DNA from: a bacterium
Lineage (GTDB): Bacteria; Verrucomicrobiota; Verrucomicrobiia; Limisphaerales; J093
Direction of reading: 5' to 3'
Assembly: GCA_021780105.1 (NCBI GenBank)
Contig: JAJXZJ010000023.1
Coordinates: 1-64,000, forward strand
DNA length: 64,000 nucleotides
The translations under genes were made by a program, and so were the position numbers. Position 1 is the stretch's first letter. Every line of letters begins with the position of its first letter. A model generated the notes under the pieces. That model was not told where the DNA came from and searched no databases. It saw only the letters and a list, made by a program, of their open reading frames with translations. Below are positions 29,501 through 57,289 of this stretch, piece by piece.

Positions 29501-30895
29501 CTAGCTTTGGAGTCCATCCCGGACGGCGGTTTCCCAGTCCGTCCATGTCACCAAATCGCCCAGACTCGGCCGGCCGTCGTGCCGCCAGGCTGGCGACGGT
29601 TGTTGCATCCGGCCCACCGCACAAATCCGCGGGACGCCCCATCGTGCGAACCGCGCGGCCAGGGTCTGTTCCTTTGCGCCCGTCGCCGCCAGGCCGACCG
29701 TGGAAATCCGCCCGCGCCACTCGTCCACACCCTGCAAAGCCTGCTCCACGTCCGCCACCGCTTTCACGTAAATGAAGCGGTTCAAGCACGACACGCGAAA
29801 ACGCGGGTCCACCTCGAACACCACCGTCCACGCGGTCGAATCCGGGCTGCACCAGAGCTGCGTGTCCGGCGAGTGCGCGGCGCGAATCTCGTAGAACGCG
29901 CGATGCGCCGCCACGGCGGCGGCGTCCGCGGTCGGCAGCGGCCCGCGCGGCTGGAGCAACTCGCCGGCCGCCAACTCGCCGGCCAGCAGTTCGGCAAAAC
30001 GCTCCGGCGCGTTGCGCCCGCCCGTTTCGACGTAAATGGCGTGCGGCGAAAGGCAGCCCAGTTGGTTCCAGACCATGACATCGCGCGCGGCGGCGGCGAC
30101 CACTTTGGGCAGCGCGAAGTTCGACAACATTTCGTGCGCCACGTAACCGAAACTCAGCCGCGTCCCGTACCCGAGAAATCTCACGCCGGCCGGCAGATGA
30201 TGGCGGATCGCCGTCAGCGTCTCGTCACTTCCCGCGGCCGTCACGCAATCCGCCTCGGCGAACAACGCGGTTTCCAGCGCCCGGTGACCGCCCCGCCACT
30301 CGGCGATTTCCAGGCACGCGCCGAGCTTCGGCTCCACCTCGCGCAACGAATGCGCAAAGAGCCGCGGCAGCAGCGCCGTGCCGCTGGCGCATTTCACGAA
30401 TTGCGCCGACCGCGTCAGCAGCCCCAGCACAATGCTCGTCAAGGCGGGGTTCGGCAGCCGGCCGCCGGTGATGTGAACCAGCATTTCCGGTCCATGCGCC
30501 AGCGCCAGGCGGTTCGAAAACGATTCCACCTCGGCCGCCATCAACCGGTCCAGCCGTTGGGCGTGGCCCAGGTCCTGAAACACCAGCGCCTGCAAGTGAT
30601 CCTGGGTCAGCGAGCCGAAAAACGCGTCAAGGCCGGCGGCCAGCGTCGGCAGGGAAAAACCGAGCGCGGCTGGTCCCTGCTCCAGCGCCCGCCGCCGGAA
30701 TGGATTCGCCGGATCGAGCCAGTCCTCCGCCAGCGCCGCGATGGCCGCGATGATGCTGGCGGTGTCGCGTTCCGCCAGGAACTGCCGCCGGTTGCTTTTC
30801 AGCGCCCGGCACGCCTCGCCCACCATGTCCGGCGTCAGCAACGACGGATTGGCCAGATCGGCAAGGAAGTAGTCCGGCAGGTCCATTGCGTCCAT
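29501..30895 (-). CDS. LuxC-like acyl-CoA/acyl-protein reductase
   Basis: The 464-residue protein belongs to the LuxC family, which reduces an activated fatty acyl group to aldehyde with NADPH. The catalytic Cys281 lies in WNQLGCLSPHAIYVE, the family's hallmark. Upstream nucleotide-binding stretches (HITGGRLPNPALTSIVLGLL, RSAQFVKCASG) are intact. It is the last gene of the minus-strand operon and begins one base after the transporter's stop. With no luxAB or luxD nearby, the aldehyde presumably feeds another pathway, such as alcohol, lipid or secondary metabolite synthesis. Confidence 0.85.
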   Translation of the reverse strand: MDAMDLPDYFLADLANPSLLTPDMVGEACRALKSNRRQFLAERDTASIIAAIAALAEDWLDPANPFRRRALEQGPAALGFSLPTLAAGLDAFFGSLTQDHLQALVFQDLGHAQRLDRLMAAEVESFSNRLALAHGPEMLVHITGGRLPNPALTSIVLGLLTRSAQFVKCASGTALLPRLFAHSLREVEPKLGACLEIAEWRGGHRALETALFAEADCVTAAGSDETLTAIRHHLPAGVRFLGYGTRLSFGYVAHEMLSNFALPKVVAAAARDVMVWNQLGCLSPHAIYVETGGRNAPERFAELLAGELAAGELLQPRGPLPTADAAAVAAHRAFYEIRAAHSPDTQLWCSPDSTAWTVVFEVDPRFRVSCLNRFIYVKAVADVEQALQGVDEWRGRISTVGLAATGAKEQTLAARFARWGVPRICAVGRMQQPSPAWRHDGRPSLGDLVTWTDWETAVRDGLQS

Positions 30896-30896
30896 G

Positions 30897-32198
30897 TTAG
30901 CAGATGTCGAATTGCCCCGCAGCGGCCGGGCCGGTGCCTGCGTAGCGGCGGCCGGGGAACCCGCGTTGACGCAAGGCGTGCAGACACGGCAACGCGGCCA
31001 GCGACACCAGCACCAGCCCACCGATGCCGGCATACAAGCCGAAGTAGCTTGCCGGCTCAGCCGCCGCCGCGCCCATCCGCCGGACCCACATGCCGGCGCA
31101 CCAGTGCGCGAGGTTGCCCAGCAGCCCACCGACCGTGATGAACAGCCCGTAAACCCGGCCGCGGACGGCGTCGGGCACGGCCTGCATCAGGGCCGCCTCG
31201 ATGATCGGATAGCTCGCCATGAAGAAGAATCCATAAGCCAGCAGCGCCGGGATCGTCCACGCCCGCGGCACGCGTGGAAAAACCGCCATGCAACCGGCCG
31301 CCACCACCAACACAAACGCCGTCCAGCGCAGCCGTGCGCGGTCGCTCAGGTGGCCGAACAACGGGTTGCTGACGGTGGCGGCGATGAACAGCAGGCTCAA
31401 CGCCAGCCCCGTGGTGCGCAGGTCGAACCCGCGGGCCTTCTGGAGAAACAGCGAGCCGAGGCTGCCCATCGTGCTGCCGGAAAAATCGCGCAGGCTCAAC
31501 AAACACGCCGCGGCAAGGAACAGCAGCCAGAGCGCGGGAGTCGGGAAAATCGGCGTCCGTCTCGCGGACTCCGCCAGCCGTCCCGTCGCGTGCGACTGCG
31601 GCTGTTCAACGGCCAGCCAAAGAAACACCGCGGCGGCGACCAAGCCGGCAACGCCCAGTTCCAACACCGGCGCCCGCCAGCCCGCGGTGCTGGCGCGCCA
31701 GCCGGCGTATAGCGGTCCGGCAAAAAATCCCGCGCCAGCGCCGATGCCCGCCAGCCCCAGCGCGCGGCCGGTGTTCACCGGAAACAAGCGGGCGATCAAC
31801 GCGGTCGCTGACGGGTGATAAAACGATCCGCCCAGCCCGGCGACCGCCGCGCAGGCCAGCGCGACGCCGTAATTCGGGGCGAGCGCCAGGCCAATGAACC
31901 CGACGGCATTCACCGCCAGGCCCCAGCCAAGCAGTTGTTTCCGGCTCAACCGGTCCGCCAGCACGCCCATCGGATAGCTCGGTCCGAAATAGGCCACCAT
32001 CATCACGGTCTCCAGCAACGTCACCTGCGCCACGCTCGACAGTCCAAGCTGCTTTTGCATCGGCAGGTAAAGCGGAATCAAGGCGACGTTGTAAAGATGG
32101 GTGAAGCCATGCAACAGGCCGCACAGCCAGAGTGTGCGCACCTGGTGCGCGTTCGGCGCGGAAGGAAACGAATCGGCCATCGCAGTCCGCCGGTTCAC
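30897..32198 (-). CDS. Major facilitator superfamily transporter in the lux-like operon
   Basis: The protein has 433 residues and 12 predicted membrane helices. MFS features include YPMGVLADRLSRKQLLGWG between helices 2 and 3 and GLGGSFYHPSATALIARLFP at helix 4, which resembles the fosmidomycin-resistance-type exporters. The GTG at 32198 overlaps the luxE-like stop as GTGA, suggesting translational coupling; an ATG at 32180 is an alternative. Its place between luxE- and luxC-like genes suggests it moves the operon's substrate or product, which is inference. Confidence 0.85.
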   Translation of the reverse strand: MNRRTAMADSFPSAPNAHQVRTLWLCGLLHGFTHLYNVALIPLYLPMQKQLGLSSVAQVTLLETVMMVAYFGPSYPMGVLADRLSRKQLLGWGLAVNAVGFIGLALAPNYGVALACAAVAGLGGSFYHPSATALIARLFPVNTGRALGLAGIGAGAGFFAGPLYAGWRASTAGWRAPVLELGVAGLVAAAVFLWLAVEQPQSHATGRLAESARRTPIFPTPALWLLFLAAACLLSLRDFSGSTMGSLGSLFLQKARGFDLRTTGLALSLLFIAATVSNPLFGHLSDRARLRWTAFVLVVAAGCMAVFPRVPRAWTIPALLAYGFFFMASYPIIEAALMQAVPDAVRGRVYGLFITVGGLLGNLAHWCAGMWVRRMGAAAAEPASYFGLYAGIGGLVLVSLAALPCLHALRQRGFPGRRYAGTGPAAAGQFDIC

Positions 32199-33322
32199 GC
32201 CGGCATCAAGGAGCAGCCGCGCGGTGCGGCCTGCGGCACGCGGCCGGCCAGCTCAAAGCCCTCGCCCCGTCGCACTGCCAGATCCTCGGTTTGAATCGCC
32301 ATCACGGAGCGGACATTCGCCAAATCCACGACGCGAAGCAAACCGGTTTCGCCATCGGCCACGTCGCGGCCCGTTTCCGGCGACACCACCCGCGCCCGCG
32401 CCCACGGCGGGAACCGGAACACCCGCCGGCCGCCGGCTGCCGGCGGCACGCCCGCCACGCTGTCGTAAGCCTGCGAACTGAGTTCGCTCATGCCGTATTC
32501 GCAAACCAGGTGCGACGCCGGAACGCCGAGCCGCCGCGTGATCGAGGCGTGAAGTTCCGCCTTCGACACCATGCGCGACCGGCCTTTGTAGCCGCCGGTT
32601 TCCAGCACCCGTGAACCGGCGGGCAGCGCCAGGTGAACGCCGGCGGCTTCGAGGTGATCGAGCAAATGCACGAAGGAAAACGCGGTGCCGAGCAGACAAA
32701 CGGGCCGACCGGCGGATGCCGCCTCGCGCAACGCCGCCAGTGCGGCCGCCCAGCGCAGCAGCCACGTGCCATCGGCGCCGACGCCAGCCAGAAACAGCGG
32801 TCCCGCCGTTCCGAACACCCGTGCAACGACATCAAACATGTGGACCAGCGACGAGTTTGGCGCGGACTCCGGCGGCGGTGTCAGCACGGCAAAGCGGAGG
32901 GGTGTTTCTTCCCGTCCGTGAAACTCCGGCATGAGATGCATCGCAAACCACGGCCGCAGCGAAGCTTCATAAACCGCGAGCGAAGCGGCATGGTGAAAAT
33001 GCCGGCTGGGCCGCTGTTCGGTCGTGCCGCTGGAGTAAAACACCTGTGTTCTTGCGGCCGGCGGCAGGCTGGTGATTTCGAAATCTTTGAACGCTGCCGT
33101 CGGCACCGCCGGAACATCCAGCCAGCCCCGCACGCTGGCCGGCGACACCTGGCGTGCCCGGCAGAGCCGCTGGTAAGCGGGTACGTGATCGAACTGCAGC
33201 GTAAACAGCGCCTGCGCGAGCTGTTCGAATTCGTCGTCCGCCGCGGGCGCGGGCAGGGCCGCGGCGCGCGGGATGAATTCCACAATGCGCGCGGAAACCT
33301 GGGAGAAAACGTTGTCATTCAT
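32195..33322 (-). CDS. LuxE-like acyl-protein synthetase
   Basis: LuxE-type enzymes activate a fatty acid with ATP, load it onto a Cys and pass it to LuxC. The adenylation motif FYSSGTTEQRPSRHF and the family block CEYGMSELSSQAYDSV are present. The product is 375 residues. The start at 33322 (MNDNVFSQVS) removes an unlikely Cys/Gly-rich extension. It heads the operon with the transporter and the LuxC-like reductase; no second promoter is evident. The natural acid is unknown. Confidence 0.82.
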   Translation of the reverse strand: MNDNVFSQVSARIVEFIPRAAALPAPAADDEFEQLAQALFTLQFDHVPAYQRLCRARQVSPASVRGWLDVPAVPTAAFKDFEITSLPPAARTQVFYSSGTTEQRPSRHFHHAASLAVYEASLRPWFAMHLMPEFHGREETPLRFAVLTPPPESAPNSSLVHMFDVVARVFGTAGPLFLAGVGADGTWLLRWAAALAALREAASAGRPVCLLGTAFSFVHLLDHLEAAGVHLALPAGSRVLETGGYKGRSRMVSKAELHASITRRLGVPASHLVCEYGMSELSSQAYDSVAGVPPAAGGRRVFRFPPWARARVVSPETGRDVADGETGLLRVVDLANVRSVMAIQTEDLAVRRGEGFELAGRVPQAAPRGCSLMPA

Positions 33323-33501: not shown

Positions 33502-33580
<79 letters not shown>

Positions 33581-39171: not shown

Positions 39172-40464
39172 TTACATGCGCGCCTTCGAGCGCAGCGGCT
39201 GTTTACGCAGTTCGGCCGCGATGCGCTCCACTTCCGGCAGCGCGTGTGCAAAGAACGTTTTGAACCCGCGGCAAAGATAGTTCAATCCTGGCTCGCCGTC
39301 GGGCGTGCGGAGGAGCCGGTTCTTGGGACATTCGCCCCAGCAGTCCGGGAGAAATGCGCATCTGTGGCAATACTGCGGCAGGCTTTCGCTCTTGGCATAG
39401 CCGAATTTCGCCTGTCCGCGGGAAAACACCATCTGGTCCAACTTCCCGGTTTTGAGATGGCCGAGGCGATATTCTGGGTAAACATAGTGATCGCAGGCGT
39501 AAACACCGCCGTCGTGTTCCACGGCGACGCCCTTGCCGCAGACTTCGCTGTAAACGCACATCTGCGAAGGCAGGCCGAGATGCTGGGCCACCAGCGTTTC
39601 AAAGTGGTTGACCATCACCTTGCCAATGTCCTGGCTCAGCCAACGATCGAAAACCCGACAGAGAAAGTAGCCCCAGTCGTCCGGATCCACCGACCACTCC
39701 GTGACGATGGAATTGGGGTGCCCGGGTTTCGCCTCCGGATCACCGTCCTTCGGCAACCCGGCGTTGTTCCAGGTCTGCGGTGCGATCCGCTCAAACTGGC
39801 GGTGCTCCACGATGGGGATGAACTGGATGTAGGTGGAATTGATTTCCTGCCGCAAAAAACGATACACATCCACGGGCCGCCGGCCATTGAAGCGGTGGAC
39901 ACAGGTCAGCGTGTTGAAAGGAATGCCGTGCCGCTGGAGCATTTTGGCGGCGGCGAACACCTTGTCGAACGTGGGTTGTTTGCCCTTGGTCACGCGGTAG
40001 TGATCGTGAATCTCGCGCGGACCGTCTATGCTCAGGCCCACGAGGAAGCGATGCTCCTTGAGAAACGCGCACCACTCCTCGTTCAGCAGCGTGCCGTTGG
40101 TCTGCAAATCGTTTTCGATGCGCTGGCCGGGTTTCGCGTGCTTCTTTTCAAAGGCAACGACCTTGCGGAAGAACTCCAGACCCATCAGTGTTGGCTCCCC
40201 GCCCTGCCAGGAAAAAACCACTTCGCCACCGGTCACCCCTTCGATGTATTGCTGGATGAACAGCTCCAGTGTTTCGTCGGACATCCGTCCCGCGCCGGGG
40301 CCTTGCGACAAGTGTTCCTTGCTCAGGTAATAGCAATACGTGCAGTCGAGATTGCAGGTGGAACTCGCCGGCTTGGCCATCGCGTGAAAACGCTTGGGTC
40401 CGCGGTCACCCAAGAGGGAAGGCGCGTCATACTTGTCAGGAGGTTGCTGCGGGATCAGATTCAT
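39172..40464 (-). CDS. Anaerobic sulfatase-maturating radical SAM enzyme
   Basis: This enzyme oxidises the active-site Cys or Ser of a sulfatase to formylglycine, using S-adenosylmethionine and iron-sulfur clusters. The radical SAM triad is C37-x3-C41-x2-C44 (CNLDCTYC), with the GGEPTLMG SAM motif. A C-terminal SPASM domain holds the auxiliary cluster cysteines (VCGKGVAVEHDGGVYACDHY, CHRCAFLPDCWGECPKNRLL). Length 430 residues. It lies 55 bases downstream of the sulfatase on the same strand, so the two are probably cotranscribed. Confidence 0.93.
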   Translation of the reverse strand: MNLIPQQPPDKYDAPSLLGDRGPKRFHAMAKPASSTCNLDCTYCYYLSKEHLSQGPGAGRMSDETLELFIQQYIEGVTGGEVVFSWQGGEPTLMGLEFFRKVVAFEKKHAKPGQRIENDLQTNGTLLNEEWCAFLKEHRFLVGLSIDGPREIHDHYRVTKGKQPTFDKVFAAAKMLQRHGIPFNTLTCVHRFNGRRPVDVYRFLRQEINSTYIQFIPIVEHRQFERIAPQTWNNAGLPKDGDPEAKPGHPNSIVTEWSVDPDDWGYFLCRVFDRWLSQDIGKVMVNHFETLVAQHLGLPSQMCVYSEVCGKGVAVEHDGGVYACDHYVYPEYRLGHLKTGKLDQMVFSRGQAKFGYAKSESLPQYCHRCAFLPDCWGECPKNRLLRTPDGEPGLNYLCRGFKTFFAHALPEVERIAAELRKQPLRSKARM

Positions 40465-56878: not shown

Positions 56879-57289
56879 GACTTCGGAAGGGCTGAGACCC
56901 GCTCCCGGCGTGAGCCGGGGGAGGAAAGTCCGAACACCGCAGGGTGCGATGCCGCGTAACCGGCGGAAAACCACCGGATAGATGCGGGCGGCGCGGCCGC
57001 GAGGCACGCCGACGGAAAGTGCCACAGAAAACAAACCGCCAAGCCGCACGGGCTGCAGTCCCGCGTGGCCGGCAAGGGTGAAAAGGTGGGGTAAAAGCCC
57101 ACCGCTCCGGGCGCAAGCGCGGAGGCACGGAAAACCCCATCGGGTGCAAGGCCAAATAGGGAACCGACGGCGCGACCCGCGTCAGTCCCCGCTTCGGCGG
57201 GGCCGGTTCCGGGTAAGGCTGCTCAGATAAATGGGTCTCTCCGCCCGTTAGGGCGCAGACAGAATTCGGCTTATGGCCCTTCCGAAGTC
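56879..57289 (+). ncRNA. rnpB: RNase P RNA (class A)
   Basis: The 5' end GACTTCGGAAGGGC pairs perfectly with the 3' end GCCCTTCCGAAGTC to form helix P1. The conserved cores GAGGAAAGTCCGAACACC, CAGGGTGCGA, ACAGAAA and AGATAAATGGGT, and the closing ACAGAATTCGGCTTA, are present in order. The length is about 411 nucleotides. It is the catalytic RNA that matures tRNA 5' ends. It lies between the GH95 gene and the haem operon. Confidence 0.96.

Follow-up and report, generated by a model that had tools for sequence, protein, structure and literature searches.

We analyzed a 64,000-nucleotide stretch of DNA (hereafter the window; positions 1 to 64,000 of contig JAJXZJ010000023.1, assembly GCA_021780105.1) from a bacterial genome of 4.55 Mb in 78 contigs, whose relatives belong to Verrucomicrobiota subdivision 3 (Limisphaerales/Pedosphaerales). 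Three consecutive genes on its minus strand are the subject of this work; they encode a LuxE-like acyl-adenylating and acyl-transfer protein, a major facilitator superfamily (MFS) transporter, and a LuxC-like acyl-thioester reductase, and we propose a role for them in queuosine precursor synthesis. The luxE gene (32195..33322) specifies a 375-amino-acid protein matching PF04443 with 43.3 bits (cut-off 24.9), the MFS gene (30897..32198) a match to PF07690 (MFS_1, 147.9 bits), and luxC (29501..30895) a match to PF05893 with 225.3 bits (cut-off 21). The LuxE and LuxC thresholds are Pfam gathering cut-offs, and both are exceeded. The luxE stop and the GTG start of the MFS gene overlap as GTGA, an in-frame ATG of the latter being also present at 32180, and its TAA stop lies one base ahead of the luxC ATG. 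The luxC open reading frame (ORF) begins at 30895, the start typical of the family being the ATG at 30886. These ORFs and Pfam matches bear out the trio and the one-base and four-base junctions described in an earlier reading made from the letters alone (the sequence-only reading). As it also stated, luxA, luxB, and luxD are missing among the neighboring ORFs scanned, no genome-wide luxAB/luxD search having been made.

The motifs expected of an acyl-cysteine relay are present in both enzymes. The C-terminal acyl-acceptor motif of LuxE is RGCSL (Cys370), and the catalytic cysteine of LuxC lies in QLGCLSP; the GCSL and GCLSP cysteines align with those of LuxE and LuxC in the solved LuxC-LuxE complex 7xc6. 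The LuxE cysteine is kept in every relative aligned. A structure model of LuxC matches LuxC of this complex with a template modeling score of 0.78. The AlphaFold model of LuxE is closest to phenylacetate-CoA ligases, and the phenazine protein EhpF, like these an aromatic-acid enzyme, is among its top matches. The acid that EhpF activates is a planar N-heteroaromatic carboxylate, which is then reduced to an aldehyde. EhpF is a structural neighbor of the LuxE model (3hgu, 3hgv, 3l2k; about 15% sequence identity) and, unlike the window LuxE, belongs to a phenazine antibiotic pathway. The folds and conserved cysteines are thus consistent with the part of the sequence-only reading that assigned acid activation to LuxE and aldehyde formation to LuxC.

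The nature of the acid is another matter. One explanation is that the product of luxE and luxC is an aldehyde or alcohol of fatty or other lipid type, which the MFS protein exports. The characterized complex 7xc6 of luminous bacteria is indeed a fatty-acid reductase, the Pfam and NCBIfam family names point the same way, and the window pair shares with it profile matches, relay motifs, the LuxC fold, and gene adjacency. However, the window proteins score far under the NCBIfam equivalog cut-offs for luminescence (52.9 vs 750 bits for LuxC, 43.5 vs 550 bits for LuxE), and the pair differs from the luminous system in having no luxD or luxAB among its neighbors and in the linkage of its family to queD, described below. 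The substrate that we propose is a heteroaromatic acid rather than a long-chain fatty acid.

Of 55 loci collected from other genomes, 53 have luxE next to luxC, and the remaining two end at a contig edge; the association is therefore not due to chance. Downstream of luxC, 43 of the 55 loci carry queD, encoding 6-carboxytetrahydropterin synthase, an arrangement not seen in the window. We extended the survey to 116 genomes of the order, 71 of them graded good quality, the source genome being G000. The usual place of luxC in the order is between luxE and queD, and most luxC-queD gaps are shorter than 120 bp. LuxC is present in 66 of the 71 good genomes, and its relatives are rare outside the order (11 of 287 genomes from elsewhere in the phylum). 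LuxC and QueD occur together in 65 good genomes and are both missing from five, with a single discordant case (Fisher p 5e-7, phylogeny ignored). Three genomes of one family (G088, G112, and G050) carry a luxE-MFS-luxC-queD-queE operon with a different QueE type. The linkage reaches another class of the phylum, where a 3.7-kb contig of G119 (L071) consists of a partial aminotransferase gene, luxE, luxC, and queD. This conservation of queD, also in another class, weighs against the view, part of the lipid explanation, that the link is incidental synteny. In two loci, a gene that appears L,D-transpeptidase-like by eye lies between luxE and the MFS gene or luxC (L007, 7995-8729; L032, 2625-3326). 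It had been considered as a short-chain dehydrogenase (SDR; c56) and was dropped as such, and it is not conserved.

QueD and QueE open the canonical de novo queuosine pathway (FolE, QueD, QueE, QueC, QueF, TGT, QueA, and QueG/H), in which QueC converts 7-carboxy-7-deazaguanine (CDG) to preQ0 and QueF reduces preQ0 to preQ1. Both QueC and QueF have been described as required for preQ1 synthesis (PMC11130926). In the order, QueD was found in 65 of the 71 good genomes, QueE in 67 (with a profile made from seven QueE), TGT in all 71, and QueA in 70. Conversely, a convincing QueC is encoded by only ten of the 116 genomes and QueF by nine, all of which also have QueC; in several QueC-positive genomes, QueC and QueF are clustered with a QueE that is additional or distinct. 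Most genomes therefore keep the pathway down to CDG and again from preQ1 on, without the two enzymes between. In the source genome, profile searches found neither QueC nor QueF. Its other pathway genes all lie outside the window: queE at C63:173617-174342, queD on another contig at C13:114121-114477, TGT on contig C16, and queA on contig C43. Its QueD is genuine by sequence, scoring above the TIGR03367 cut-off with about 61% identity to a Salmonella queD product. A folate bypass, in which QueD with LuxE and LuxC would replace FolB, was rejected, as FolB is present in 69 of the 71 good genomes.

The presence of LuxE-LuxC together with the QueC/QueF gap therefore led us to predict that the pair reduces CDG and that an aminotransferase completes the route. 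From the observed gene content, linkage, motifs, and co-loss pattern, we infer every reaction and the transporter substrate as follows. QueD would supply 6-carboxytetrahydropterin and QueE would lead to CDG. LuxE would use ATP to adenylate the CDG carboxylate, and its Cys370 would hand the acyl group over, in thioester linkage, to the LuxC cysteine. LuxC would reduce this thioester, at the expense of NAD(P)H, to 7-formyl-7-deazaguanine. An aminotransferase of class III, dependent on pyridoxal phosphate and encoded next to queE, would then convert the aldehyde to 7-aminomethyl-7-deazaguanine (preQ1), to be inserted into tRNA by TGT and extended by QueA. In about a quarter of the lineages, the MFS protein might move queuosine precursors (preQ1 or preQ0) across the membrane. 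Compared with the canonical pathway, QueD, QueE, TGT, QueA, and the predicted product preQ1 are shared, LuxE, LuxC, and the aminotransferase are proposed in place of the QueC and QueF that most genomes of the order lack, and the intermediate would be an aldehyde, not a nitrile. The chemistry has precedents: the chemical reductive amination of 7-formyl-7-deazaguanine proceeds readily (PMC11897656), and many heteroaromatic aldehydes are converted to amines by a class-III putrescine transaminase (PMC6308316).

The need for a transaminase after the conversion of the CDG carboxylate to an aldehyde was predicted before the queE neighborhoods were inspected. Inspection then showed a class-III aminotransferase gene (PF00202) immediately downstream of queE. 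Of the 51 QueC-less genomes that could be tested, 41 have it beside queE, mostly at a distance of no more than about 200 bp. In the source genome it lies 25 bp downstream of queE, outside the window (at about C63:174371-175684). The solved structures nearest to this aminotransferase are putrescine and γ-aminobutyrate aminotransferases.

Natural losses provide a further line of evidence. LuxC was read in 93 genomes of the order, 86 without and seven with QueC. The catalytic cysteine is kept in all 86 QueC-less genomes, and luxE lies upstream of luxC in 84 of them, one of the exceptions being a contig edge; for the source genome, luxE was counted from the window sequence. In four QueC-positive genomes (G012, G032, G035, and G106), this cysteine is replaced by W or P, and luxE was not found, the G106 contig offering only 303 bp upstream. 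In three of these (G012, G032, and G106), no aminotransferase gene was seen next to queE, and our search found no order-type queE in G035. Loss of the cysteine is associated with possession of QueC (p 1.2e-5, phylogeny ignored). Since G032 and G106 share one genus, the losses of the cysteine and of luxE represent about three independent events. Three further QueC-positive genomes have no LuxC at all. That luxE and the LuxC cysteine are lost where QueC and QueF are present is not predicted by a role in lipid metabolism. Together with the conserved queD, in another class too, and the lack of an MFS gene in about three quarters of the genomes, this makes the production of a fatty or lipid compound very unlikely. 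The fatty aldehyde, alcohol, or polyene product with its export put forward in the sequence-only reading finds no support, as no conserved lipid or polyene gene accompanies the pair, and queD and sometimes queE do so instead. A function of the MFS protein as exporter of fatty products was dropped for the same lack of conserved lipid genes.

The same losses bear on a second explanation, that the order encodes an unrecognized, nonhomologous or very divergent QueC or QueF, and that luxE, luxC, and the aminotransferase gene are unrelated to it and only co-inherited. It is true that the absences were deduced with profiles from genomes most of which are incomplete. However, the same profiles clearly detect QueC and QueF in about nine genomes of the order, in several of them side by side and with a distinct queE, and luxE and the LuxC cysteine were lost in separate QueC-positive lineages. 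We regard this explanation as highly improbable, the least probable of those considered.

In a third explanation, the pair performs another 7-deazaguanine or pterin step or makes another such product, for instance by reduction of 6-carboxytetrahydropterin or in the synthesis of a secondary 7-deazaguanine metabolite, and preQ1 is salvaged through the MFS protein or another transporter. The linkage to queD is indeed stronger than that to queE, uptake of preQ0 and preQ1 by an MFS protein is known from Bartonella henselae (PMC11130926), and TGT and QueA are encoded by a few genomes (G034 and G093) in which no LuxC, QueD, QueE, or convincing QueC was found. Against this, QueE is kept almost everywhere with the aminotransferase gene beside it, which fits a step after CDG; salvage alone would not retain QueD and QueE; and the wide occurrence of FolB makes a folate bypass unneeded. 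This third explanation thus appears unlikely.

We therefore consider it likely, on comparative sequence grounds, that luxE-luxC supply the reduction in a pathway to queuosine precursors that bypasses QueC and QueF. A somewhat broader proposal seems to us probable, if less assured: that throughout this Verrucomicrobiota order queuosine is made de novo mainly by a route free of preQ0 and of any nitrile, via 7-formyl-7-deazaguanine and using LuxE-LuxC with a class-III aminotransferase dedicated to it, and that this route extends to at least one other class. Several observations weigh against these proposals. No aminotransferase gene adjoins queE in 10 of the 51 testable genomes, nor in the family with queE inside the luxE-luxC operon, the enzyme having been looked for beside queE only. 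Three QueC-positive genomes (G003, G036, and G048) keep an intact luxE-luxC, and the cysteine-less LuxC is still conserved directly upstream of queD in QueC-positive genomes (L175, L176, L069, and L172). A search around 37 loci at Rfam gathering thresholds gave no preQ1 riboswitch, though this does not decide the matter, and most surveyed genomes are metagenome-assembled. Finally, Pantoea, lactobacilli, and some other genomes of the phylum carry related luxE-luxC pairs without queD; judging from these, the family has other substrates, and the pair alone is no marker of the pathway. Among the loci just cited, L069 has an ApbE-like gene after queD.

A nitrile-free route to preQ1 replacing QueC and QueF would nevertheless be the best reading of these genomes, and we found no earlier description in the open-access literature of LuxE or LuxC in connection with queuosine, of 7-formyl-7-deazaguanine in this role, or of QueC-independent routes. 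Genome surveys sort organisms by the presence of QueC/QueF-type enzymes, which are called required (PMC11130926). If the proposal is correct, some organisms now regarded as salvagers would make their own preQ1, 7-formyl-7-deazaguanine would be a new natural metabolite, and proteins annotated as "fatty acyl-CoA reductase" or "long-chain ligase" would gain a role in primary metabolism, in tRNA modification.

The MFS gene has a more irregular distribution than the two enzymes. It is present in 32 of the 116 genomes (18 of the 71 good ones), nearly always between luxE and luxC, a position that it occupies in 15 of the 55 loci. Where present, it evolves with the pair: MFS distances correlate with those of LuxC (r 0.76) and LuxE (0.77) nearly as closely as LuxE with LuxC (0.82), and for this reason the transporter is probably an old, often lost member of the operon. 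The sequence-only reading had treated it as part of the system and suggested that co-conservation of the trio be checked in relatives; this holds for luxE and luxC and for the joint evolution of the transporter, but only about a quarter of the genomes have it, and the refuting condition named there, a trio not co-conserved in relatives, applies in part. Overall, that reading is partly supported. Because the B. henselae importer of preQ0 and preQ1 belongs to the same PF07690 family, a role of the window protein as queuosine-precursor transporter is plausible, the comparison being at family level and the role here a prediction. In G052 (C3:86444-87916) and G105 (C64:3948-5246), the MFS gene located between the two enzyme genes looks as if it were undergoing loss, being interrupted by an in-frame stop or split.

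Relatives of the pair also occur in other contexts. LuxE-LuxC-SDR cassettes with the same gene order are found on plasmids of Pantoea, Lactiplantibacillus, and Levilactobacillus. Over most of the protein length, sequence identity is about 34-35% for LuxC and reaches 42% for LuxE; an SDR gene follows luxC in place of queD. In the lactobacilli (L168, 1624-6321; L170, 3181-7878), the cassette comprises an SLC23-family (nucleobase-type) permease gene ahead of luxE, luxC, and the SDR gene, and this permease hints at a nucleobase-like acid as substrate. A few kb separate the Pantoea dispersa cassette (L169, 4790-8137) from the purine catabolism gene hpxD. Two small genomes from one family of the class (L064 and L070) carry luxE-luxC with a shorter LuxC and a HisI-like gene close by, and no queD near the pair. 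In G020 (L072, 4919-7462), a fused LuxE-LuxC of 847 amino acids from a different subfamily is encoded, in an apparent polysaccharide cluster, beside genes for an AMP ligase and for a protein resembling iron-containing alcohol dehydrogenases. No LuxE was found in phages.

Around the trio, a tRNA gene (33504-33577) lies upstream on the opposite strand, and a gene for an RRM RNA-binding protein comes after luxC. Elsewhere in the window, we identified a gene for a radical SAM protein with a SPASM domain, sulfatase maturase-like (39172-40464, minus strand), and a class A bacterial RNase P RNA (Rfam; 56883-57289, plus strand).

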